Below, piece by piece: positions 14,234-33,595 of a DNA stretch of 64,000 nucleotides. The translations under genes were made by a program, and so were the position numbers. The DNA is from Acidobacteriaceae bacterium. GTDB taxonomy: Bacteria; Acidobacteriota; Terriglobia; Terriglobales; Acidobacteriaceae. How positions within the stretch are numbered: position 1 is the first letter of the stretch; the number at the start of each line of letters is the position of its first letter. Location: assembly GCA_003151335.1 (NCBI GenBank), contig PLXE01000030.1:1-64000 (forward strand). The letters are read 5' to 3'. The notes under the pieces were generated by a model. That model did no database searches. It was not told the DNA's origin and worked only from the letters and a program-made list of their open reading frames with translations.

Positions 14234-14520
14234 GGCGTAACATGATTGGCGGCCAACCTATAGGTTTGGGAAAGTGAGGGGGTGGATTGCACTCCTTATC
14301 GGCTCTGAACGGCCCGTTGCTTATTTGCCATTCAAGGCTCTTTAGATCTTTGAGAAGTACGGGCGCCGGGCGTGATGGGAGCCTCAACCAACTCGGTGTC
14401 GCGGTCGATATACCGTTTGGGCGACGTGATGGCGCAGTATCCATCACCGCTTCCGGGGGCGACATCAAGCTTCTCCGGTCACTACCGTCTGCATCTTTTG
14501 CAGGGCCGCCTCATCTAAAG
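14234..14520. other. Intergenic upstream of lon
   Basis: About 290 bp with no convincing gene; frames here are short and unlike known proteins. It ends at the HAIR operator and must contain the lon promoter, but no clear -35/-10 pair stands out. Confidence 0.4.
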
Positions 14521-14541
14521 CTTGAGTGTGATAGACTCAAG
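14521..14541 (+). promoter_or_regulatory. HAIR operator for an HspR-type repressor, upstream of lon
   Basis: The sequence CTTGAGT-N7-ACTCAAG (arms 14521-14527 and 14535-14541, spacer GTGATAG) is an exact match to the HAIR consensus known for HspR in Streptomyces and relatives, where it controls dnaK, clpB and lon. The right arm overlaps the lon ribosome site AAGGAG (14539-14544). Bound repressor should block lon transcription until heat or folding stress. No hspR gene is in this window. Confidence 0.85.
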
Positions 14542-14548
14542 GAGTCAT

Positions 14549-16996
14549 ATGTCTAAGGAAACAAAAGATTTAAAGGTAACCGATCCGGAATTGCGGGACG
14601 ATGCATCAGCCGCCCGCACCGTTCCGGTCTTGCCGGTGCGCGACACCGTGCTGTTTCCCCACGCCGTGCTGCCGCTGACGGTTGGCCGGGAAAGTTCGGT
14701 CCAGTTGATCAATTCCCTGGGTGAGGACAAGACCATTGTGGTGGTGGCGCAGCGCGAAGCTCGGGTCGATTCGCCGCAGCCTACCGACCTTTACACGGTG
14801 GGAAGCCTGGCGGTGGTGCATAAAGTAGTGCGCATGCCCAACCAGAGCCTGTTTGTTTTTGCCGAAGGCTTGGAGCGCGTCAAGGTGACGGAGTACACGC
14901 AGTTGACTCCGTTCATGTACTCGACGGTCGAGACTATTCCCGAGATACCGGCCCCCAAGAGTTCCGCGATCGAGGCTTTGCAGCGCAACGTATTGACGCT
15001 GTTTCAGCAGATCGTGGCGGGCTCACCGACGCTTTCCGATGAACTTTCCACGGTGGCGGCCAACATCGACGACGCCGGCCGCATGGTTGATTTTATCGCC
15101 TCGTCGCTGCCGTCGTTGTCCACCCGCGATAAGCAGGACGTGCTGGAGACCCCCGACGTTAACGCGCGCCTGGAGAAAATCAACCAGCATTTGGCCAAGG
15201 AACTGGAAGTTCAGCAACTGCGCAATAAGATCCAAAGCGAGGTGCAGGACCGGGTGCAGCAGACGCAACGCGAGTACTACCTGCGCGAGCAAATGAAGGC
15301 CATCCAGAAAGAACTGGGCGAGCAGGACGAAACCACGCGCGACGCGGAGGAGCTGCGGCAGAAAATTGAATCGGCGGGCATGCCCGACGACGTGAAGAAG
15401 GAGGCCCTGAAGGAACTGGGCCGGCTGGCCCGCATGTCACCCATGGCCGCCGACTACGGGCTGACGCGCAATTACATCGAGTGGCTGGCGATACTTCCCT
15501 GGCAGAAATCCTCGGGCGTGGAAGTGGACATTCTGAAAGCCAAGGAGATCCTCGATTCCGACCATTACGATCTGGAGAAAGTGAAGGACCGGATTCTGGA
15601 TTACCTGTCGGTCCGCCGGTTGAAGCCCAATATGAAAGGGCCGATCCTGTGCTTCGTGGGACCGCCGGGAGTGGGCAAGACTTCGCTGGGCAAGTCGATC
15701 GCGCGCGCCCTGGGACGCAAGTTCGTGCGCTTGTCGCTGGGCGGGGTGCACGACGAGGCCGAGGTCCGCGGACATCGCCGCACCTACATTGGCGCTTTGC
15801 CCGGCCAGATCATGCAGGGCATCCGCCGCGCGGAAACCAACGATCCGGTTTTCATGCTCGACGAAATTGACAAAGTGGGACGCGACTTTCGCGGCGATCC
15901 CGCGTCGGCGCTGCTGGAGGCCCTCGATCCCGAGCAGAACTTCAGCTTCCGCGATAACTACCTCGACGTGCCCTTCGATTTGTCGAAGGTGCTGTTCATC
16001 ACCACCGCGAACGTGCTCGATCCCATAGCCGATCCGCTGCGCGATCGCATGGAGATCATCGAGCTGCAAGGCTACACGGAAGAGGAAAAGGTACACATCG
16101 CATTCCAGTACCTGGTTCCCCGCCAGATCGAGGAGAACGGAGTTACCGGCGCTCAGATCGAGTTTCCCGAGGAAGCGGTCCGTTTTATCATTCGCCACTA
16201 CACCCGCGAAGCCGGTGTGCGCAGCCTGGAGCGCACCATCGGGACCATCTGCCGCAAACAGGCGCGGCGCATTGCCGAGGGTAAGCACGACAAACTGACG
16301 GTGACGCCGGAGTTGGTGCAGCAGAAGGACATGCTGGGTGGGATGAAGATCCGCACCGAGGGCGAAATTGCCGAGCGCACCAAGCGATCGGGCGTGGCCG
16401 TGGGCCTGGCGTGGACGCCGACCGGCGGCGACATCCTGTTCATCGAGGCCAACAAGATGAAGGGCAAGGGCGGCTTCACCATGACCGGCCAGCTCGGTCA
16501 GGTGATGCAGGAGTCCATGCAGGCGGCGCTGACCTGGGTGCGGTCGAATGCGAAGGAGCTGAACATCAACGAAGGGTTCTTCGCCGACCATGACATTCAC
16601 ATCCACGTGCCCGCGGGCGCTATTCCGAAGGACGGACCTTCGGCGGGTGTGACCATGGCTACGGCTTTGGTGTCGCTGCTCACCGATCGGCGAGTTCGGC
16701 CGCTGACCGCGATGACCGGCGAGATCACGTTGAGTGGCAATGTGCTTCCCATCGGCGGCATCAAGGAGAAAACCTTGGCGGCAAAACGCGCGGGCGTGAC
16801 GGACATTATTCTGCCTGCCGACAACCGCCAGAACGTTGACGAAGACCTGACGCCGGAGCAACTTCAGGGCCTGACCATGCATTACATCAAGACCATTGAG
16901 GAGCTGCTCGACATTGCTCTGCCCACCAGTCGCGCGGAAGCCAAGCAGGACGAGGAAGTCCGCGAGCAGGTGCTGAGCACGGTTCCAGTTGGATGA
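14549..16996 (+). CDS. lon: ATP-dependent protease Lon (LonA type)
   Basis: 815 residues from the ATG at 14549, which follows AAGGAG. The N-terminal LAN domain (about 25-215) begins [23 protein letters not shown]. The AAA+ module has Walker [10 protein letters not shown] (about 371) and Walker [10 protein letters not shown]. The protease domain has catalytic Ser about 698 in PKDGPSAGV and the Lys of GGIKEK about 43 residues later. It degrades misfolded and regulatory proteins. Transcription is probably HspR-controlled through the HAIR site at 14521, and a terminator follows at 17063. Confidence 0.97.
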
Positions 16997-26503: not shown

Positions 26504-27322
26504 TCATAAAAACTGTTTCAATGTCTCCCGCAGCGTTTCATACGCCCGGAACAGCAACGACTTGGTTGCCGACTCACTTAACTTTAATACCGCCGCGATC
26601 TGCTTGTAATCCATATTCTGGTACTTGTGCATGATCACGGCCATGCGTTGGCGCTCCGGCAATGCCTCGACCTGGCGGCGAATGGCCGCCAACCTTTCCG
26701 TGCGCAGAAGGCTTTGCTCAGCATTCAAGCCGCCGTCCGCCAAGTCCACGGTCATGCCGGTATCGGTATCGGGCTCATCCAGATTCACCATGTTCTCGGG
26801 GCGTTCGTGCTTGGTGTCGCGCGCGTAATTCACCGCCAGGTTGGTCGCAATACGATAGAGCCAGGTGGTGAACTTAGCGCTCGCCGCATAGCCTTGCCGC
26901 GAGCGATAGACCCGCAGAAACACTTCTTGCGCCAGCTCCTCCGCCACCGACTGAATGTGGGTCATGCGGTACATGAAGCTGATCATCTGACGGCGGTATT
27001 TTTCCACCAGATAATTGAAAGCGACATCGTCGCCCGCGGCCACGCGTAGCATGACCTCGGCGTCGCTCAGCATCTCCAGCACGACAGGTTCGATCAATTC
27101 GCCCCGTAGTCCGGCGGGTAGCTCCGCTGTCCCCTCAGCGGAGCCACCCCCCAGCAAGCGTCGATCCAGGGCGATGCTGCTCACATCGGCTGTAACCCTT
27201 CTGCCTCCAGAAAGTTGCGTCGGAGCAGCCCGGCTTCCCGCCGGCCCGCGAGCAGGCCGCGCGGAACTGCGATCGGAAGAGTCAGCAAGCTCCGATTCGC
27301 GTTTGGGTTTGTCCATTGCCAT
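26504..27322 (-). CDS. ECF RNA polymerase sigma factor
   Basis: 272 residues. Region 2 lies at about 95-165 (AFNYLVEKYRRQMISFMYRMTHIQSVAEELAQEVFLRVYR) and region 4 at about 210-265 (LPERQRMAVIMHKYQNMDYKQIAAVLKLSESATKSLLFRAYETLRETL). ECF factors are about 170-200 residues; here about 85 extra low-complexity residues precede region 2. The true start may be later, for example ATG 27073 (MLSDAEVMLRVAAGDD). It directs a small regulon and probably its own operon with the anti-sigma and DUF3106 genes. Confidence 0.9.
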   Translation of the reverse strand: MAMDKPKRESELADSSDRSSARPARGPAGSRAAPTQLSGGRRVTADVSSIALDRRLLGGGSAEGTAELPAGLRGELIEPVVLEMLSDAEVMLRVAAGDDVAFNYLVEKYRRQMISFMYRMTHIQSVAEELAQEVFLRVYRSRQGYAASAKFTTWLYRIATNLAVNYARDTKHERPENMVNLDEPDTDTGMTVDLADGGLNAEQSLLRTERLAAIRRQVEALPERQRMAVIMHKYQNMDYKQIAAVLKLSESATKSLLFRAYETLRETLKQFL

Positions 27323-33397: not shown

Positions 33398-33595
33398 AAA
33401 AAGCCGACCCGCGGGGCCGTGTTCAGTGGGCCGTCAATGAACCCGTCCTATACGGTGGGAACCCTCCGCAGCTCTTTAGGCATTTCCGCATGACGGAACA
33501 TCGCACACCGAGCCAGATACGAGTAGGGCCCCCTGTTCATTGAGCATTGGTTCAAAAAACGGTTGCCACCAACACCAACTTTGCAGGCCGGCTTT
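33398..33595 (-). ncRNA. ssrS: Probable 6S RNA
   Basis: The transcript side is the minus strand, about 198 nt. The ends pair as AAAGCCGGCC with GGGUCGGCUUU, and the 3' end runs into UUUUU. Inside, GUGUUGGUGG pairs imperfectly with CCACUGAACAC, UCAAUGAAC pairs exactly with GUUCAUUGA, and CACCG pairs with CGGUG. This gives a long rod with internal bulges, the 6S RNA shape. It lies just downstream of zapA, the position of 6S RNA in many bacteria. 6S RNA mimics an open promoter and binds sigma-70 polymerase in stationary phase. A covariance-model search was not possible here. Confidence 0.62.

Follow-up and report, generated by a model that had tools for sequence, protein, structure and literature searches.

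The inverted repeat that lies directly upstream of lon in this Acidobacteriaceae genome, at positions 14521-14541 of the 64,000-nucleotide stretch analysed (hereafter the window), is in our reading an operator for HspR, which would repress lon in unstressed cells and release it on heat, with transcription predicted to begin within the operator's left arm from a promoter of the ECF-sigma-like type. We give this reading a probability of about 0.88. Judging from sequence, it is very probable that this soil acidobacterium regulates Lon by heat in the way known from Streptomyces. The suggestion of an earlier note on this DNA, that HspR controls Lon in this lineage, is supported by an hspR gene, by sister sites at other heat-shock genes and by conservation within the family, from which we infer both binding and the response to heat.

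An exact HAIR site overlaps the ribosome-binding site of lon

The letters at 14521-14541 (CTTGAGTGTGATAGACTCAAG) match the HAIR consensus CTTGAGT-N7-ACTCAAG at 14/14 bases; the site, to which no strand is assigned, is identified as a HAIR operator from its sequence, from genome searches and from its conservation in the family. The earlier note had described this exact match, and direct reading bears it out. Its attribution of the consensus to Streptomyces HspR, and its statement that lon is a target there, agree with the available parts of two published accounts, in which the S. coelicolor HspR consensus is CTTGAGT-N7-ACTCAAG (PMC6102357) and lon is an in vivo target of HspR in Streptomyces (PMC2687793). 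The position given for the site also holds: the HAIR ends 7 bp before the ATG of lon at 14549, and the last three bases of its right arm are the AAG with which the ribosome-binding site AAGGAG (14539-14544, plus strand, direct reading) begins. The presumed target, lon (14549-16996, plus strand), encodes an endopeptidase La of 815 amino acids that scores 952.6 bits against TIGR00763 (cut-off 608) and contains the LON_substr_bdg, AAA and Lon_C domains in a family profile search. Its six best complete named relatives, with 67-74% identity, are all from Acidobacteria, including Granulicella and Edaphobacter, which by itself would place the window in the Acidobacteriota, probably close to Acidobacteriaceae. 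A longer lon frame starting from a TTG inside the HAIR was considered and rejected, since the distance between operator and start codon is either 7 or 8 bp among relatives and a frame running through the HAIR is therefore not kept.

The exact HAIR occurs once in the whole genome (4,652,150 bases), at lon, and by our own arithmetic about 0.0002 exact copies (64,000/4^14) would be expected by chance in the window. When up to three mismatches are allowed, the lon site is still the only match in the window, where 1.5 would be expected by chance, so that within the window exactness alone is informative. Across the genome, this loose form is found at 88 places compared with 214 for a reversed control pattern; there is no enrichment, loose likeness by itself is thus unconvincing, and the list of sites with up to three mismatches was set aside as uninformative evidence for a regulon. 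The case for a lon operator, as far as sequence can make it, rests on exactness, place and conservation. Besides lon, 13 places in the genome have one or two mismatches, and one of them lies at a recognised heat-shock gene, dnaK; the other 12, as judged by eye from translations, fall in reading frames, in an apparent repeated element and, in one case, between two metabolic-looking genes, while two of the places with three mismatches were examined. The form of the site typical of the lineage, CTTGASW-N7-ACTCA, is present at four distinct places, namely lon, dnaK, one hsp20-clpB pair and one position within coding sequence. Since its reversed control finds three places, this number is ordinary, and it is the addresses, three of the four before heat-shock genes, that constitute the evidence.

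The genome encodes HspR next to dnaK and dnaJ

A profile search with PF13411 identified four MerR-type genes in the genome. One of these, on contig C103, has dnaK and dnaJ directly ahead of it on the same strand, in the order dnaK-dnaJ-hspR, and its product scores 105 bits against the HspR profile NF047375, a borderline value exactly at the curated cut-off of 105, with a MerR_1 domain at 72 bits. Two of the other three MerR-type genes were scored against NF047375 and reach 27.5 and 33.4 bits. A MerR-like hspR in the neighbourhood of dnaK or clpB, as the earlier note had envisaged, is therefore present, as are further HAIR sites at chaperone genes; that note had regarded the absence of both as the finding that would speak against HspR control.

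Matches to hspR at E <= 1e-15 were obtained in 58 of the 61 genomes searched, including 9/9 of the genus and all 23 genomes that have a strong lon HAIR; no match at this threshold was found in G016, G028 (a genome that is 76% complete) or G058. The helix-turn-helix and DNA-binding region of HspR is almost unchanged across the nine members aligned.

Sister sites precede dnaK and two hsp20-clpB pairs

Upstream of dnaK we find CTTGACA-N7-ACTCAAG, which matches HAIR at 12/14 bases. The TTGACA of this site is followed 17 bp on by TATAGT, which implies that the operator overlaps a promoter of the sigma-70 type. The combination TTGACA-N8-CTCA is present at dnaK in 25 of the 27 genomes, this one included, in which dnaK was readable (41 stretches behind hspR were examined; dnaK was not found in 14, some of them cut by contig ends), and 20 of these 25 sites are followed after 16-18 bp by a -10-like hexamer. 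Two hsp20-clpB pairs in the genome carry CTTGACAGCAATACACTCATA and CTTGATGGTTATACACTCATA upstream, with 10/14 HAIR bases each, the second pair having a CTTGATG form. The lon HAIR is more symmetric than the dnaK and hsp20 sites, which lie well away from their start codons.

The clpB of the second pair (L253/L254; G000:C29:816-3375) gives two overlapping partial matches, each in another frame, and is possibly a decaying duplicate or an assembly error; in the copy of the pair on C75, clpB is in one frame.

The lon operator is conserved within the family

Sixty of the 61 genomes have a Lon match, and the region upstream of this lon could be read in 50: 36/37 from the same family, 9/14 from the sister family and 5/10 from others of the class. 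To these we added 8 of 80 named records, the nearest acidobacterial ones having the gene start. A HAIR of at least 12/14 precedes lon in 9/9 genomes of the genus and in 14/27 of the rest of the family (23/36 for the family as a whole), and in 0/9 of the sister family, 0/5 of the others of the class and 0/8 of the named records. At this threshold mononucleotide shuffles gave a mean of 0.01 or less, and the second lon gene gave 0/20; at 11/14 or more, the second lon gene gave 2/20 (0.16 in shuffles). A scan was possible for 76 of the 80 named lon loci, the best two of which reach 11/14. In the genome studied here, the second lon gene (G000:C120:61189-63510; upstream region L208) is 50% identical to the first and carries neither a HAIR nor the promoter-like element described below.

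According to the script used for scoring, the operator ends 7-8 bp before the start codon in 21 of the 23 family sites; of the remaining two, one lies at 73 bp (G035) and the other was not scorable by the script (G018). All 23 have a spacer of 7 bp, a length that is set by the search pattern, and among them there are 18 distinct spacer sequences. Strong HAIR sites are lacking at 13 of the 36 family lon loci, although hspR is present in 11 of the 13 genomes concerned. We considered whether hspR and the lon site were lost together in G016 and G028 and rejected this as too weak an association (2/13 compared with 0/23), G028 being incomplete.

In Granulicella, Edaphobacter and similar genera, TTGATA-N7-ACTCAATG lies over the lon start codon; the core TTGATA-N7-ACTCA is seen there at loci L029-L032, L131, L168 and L178. 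It may be a decayed HAIR or a different element. It is also kept in G016 (L168), which has no hspR match, and HspR need not explain this sequence.

A promoter-like element lies directly upstream of the operator

Immediately ahead of the HAIR there are two further blocks on the plus strand: a putative -35 element, TGCATCTTTT (14490-14499), which is conserved about 31-22 bp before the operator and would belong to an ECF-sigma-like promoter, and a putative -10 element, CATCTAAA (14512-14519), which is supported by conservation and by the occurrence of the same octamer before the dnaK HAIR. The family shares boxes resembling TGCATCYTTT and CATC upstream of the lon operator, and of the 16 family lon loci displayed, 15 have the CATC box no more than 6 bp from the HAIR; in G013 it lies further up. 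Within the genus, the promoter-like element and the HAIR are both kept in 9/9. ECF promoters with a -35 box of the type TGAAACYTTT and a -10 box of the type CGTC are known, and we read the upstream element as a probable ECF-type promoter that would start inside the operator.

A strict pattern drawn from lon and dnaK themselves, TGCAWC-N15..18-CATCWAAA, has two matches in the genome, at lon and dnaK, while its reversed control has none. It is present in 32 of the 60 family genomes searched, and 31 loci were readable, some places having been assigned no locus. Fourteen of these 31 have a HAIR-like site (at least 10/14) 0-1 bp behind the pattern, and all of them are lon (7) or dnaK (7) loci; the other 17 have no HAIR-like site at that distance. 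A looser pattern, TGMAWC-N14..18-CATC, derived from the very loci that were then counted, is found at 29/36 family lon and 11/15 family dnaK loci, compared with 0/14 outgroup lon, 0/12 outgroup dnaK, 0/20 second lon and 1/8 named-record controls, and with fewer than 0.2 on average in dinucleotide shuffles. A search with TGCAWCYTTT...CRTC returned lon and two places that have no ATG or GTG frame of at least 70 amino acids within 300 bp. The genome contains 25 sigma-70-family matches, of which 19 are over the cut-off, and the promoter-like element was found before none of the 23 scanned, self-control not being universal among sigma genes. One ECF-type gene of this family lies in the window itself (26519-27022, minus strand; TIGR02937, 98.1 bits) and has no TGMAWC...CRTC upstream; the window also contains a 6S RNA (33402-33592, minus strand; RF00013, 59.5 bits).

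In Bifidobacterium the HAIR is extended by AAA in front, as AAAsTTGAGysw, in the part of the report available (PMC9004370), so the AAA of CATCTAAA may instead belong to an extended operator rather than to a -10 element. With a likelihood that we put a little short of even, the family might possess a dedicated class of heat-shock promoters, TGCATC-N16/17-CATCWAAA, read by an ECF-type sigma factor and with the HspR operator fused to the start at lon and dnaK, an arrangement that would put protein quality control under a two-key switch needing sigma on and repressor off.

Alternative interpretations

The conservation of the promoter-like element also bears on the possibility that HspR binds but that an ECF-like sigma factor mainly controls lon, the HAIR providing secondary fine-tuning. 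In favour of this interpretation, six lon loci of the family retain the element with a HAIR score below 12/14, including that of G028, which has no hspR match; on the other hand, both elements are kept throughout the genus (9/9), and the operator covers the predicted start, a strong position for repression. We therefore regard predominantly sigma-led control as possible, if rather unlikely.

A second interpretation is that the inverted repeat acts in the mRNA, as a 5' hairpin in which the ribosome site is partly masked until heat opens the stem (an RNA thermometer). Assuming that the transcript starts at the operator, the two arms would pair over 7 bp, with the AAG of AAGGAG inside the stem, and the segment 14521-14575 folds at -11.2 kcal/mol (z -1.96), a stability equalled or exceeded by 8 of 200 shuffles. 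However, the full stem pairs in 5 of the 20 distinct sequences among the 23 family sites, the outer pair being G-G in 9 and the inner pair C-A in 5, and just a single site shows a compensating change, whereas the near-invariant bases of these sites are those of the HspR consensus; the lower symmetry of the dnaK and hsp20 sites and their distance from start codons also argue against it. Since the pairing of the stem is not kept, we rejected an RNA thermometer as the main reading and consider it very improbable. That the HAIR is due to chance or is a by-product of the translation-start sequence (TTGA...ACTCAAGGAG) is hardly credible, for although the TTGATA-N7-ACTCAATG found over the start codon in related genera, and even in G016, fits such an origin, sites of at least 12/14 occur in 9/9 and 14/27 genomes, shuffles average 0.01 and the second lon gene scores 0/20; with 7 or 8 bp to the start codon, moreover, no reading frame is preserved through the operator.

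Discussion

On the preferred reading, control by HspR at an operator on the lon transcription start, an HspR dimer bound to the HAIR would block lon transcription in unstressed cells. DnaK acts as a co-repressor of HspR in Streptomyces. Upon heat or protein damage HspR would let go, and Lon levels would increase alongside those of DnaK and ClpB. The most likely promoter of lon is the ECF-sigma-like TGCATC-N16-CATCTAAA directly upstream; transcription would then begin within the left HAIR arm and give a 5' leader of about 20-28 nt consisting mostly of operator and ribosome site. As the operator at lon lies behind the sole conserved promoter-like element seen there, bound HspR would lie over both the start point and the DNA of the ribosome site, while at dnaK and hsp20-clpB the operator would overlap the -35 region and spacer of a promoter of the sigma-70 type. 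Both layouts would be expected to exclude RNA polymerase for as long as HspR is bound.

HspR control of lon is already known in Streptomyces and Deinococcus; what is new is the lineage and the layout. Among the top matches in the open-access literature we found no report of HspR regulation in Acidobacteria. Our analysis would extend HspR control of Lon to the Acidobacteriota, a phylum that is plentiful in soil yet little studied, and the genes of the regulon can be named one by one. The promoter element shared by lon and dnaK offers a lead to a presumed heat-shock sigma factor.

The hspR gene of Streptomyces coelicolor sits in the dnaK operon and is likewise linked to dnaK here. The two systems also have the same operator consensus and the same kinds of target (dnaK, clpB and lon), as far as the available parts of the Streptomyces reports extend (PMC2687793; PMC6102357). 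Unlike that of S. coelicolor, the present system belongs to a host in the Acidobacteriota, has hsp20 ahead of clpB and has no grpE seen between dnaK and dnaJ; its lon and dnaK operators are also preceded by an ECF-like element, in a comparison that covered the operators and targets of Streptomyces. In Deinococcus radiodurans, the portions of the literature consulted indicate that HspR controls hsp20, dnaK, lonB and clpB, among others (PMC2687793), and that sig1 is needed for the induction of GroESL and DnaKJ (PMC6888292). The comparison with HspR and Sig1 of that species covered the targets and the part played by the sigma factor. The promoter motif of SigH is of the GGAAT/GTT type and is unlike the TGCATC/CATCTAAA found here. 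In Corynebacterium glutamicum this ECF sigma factor and HspR belong to one heat-shock network, according to the available part of the account (PMC3489674).
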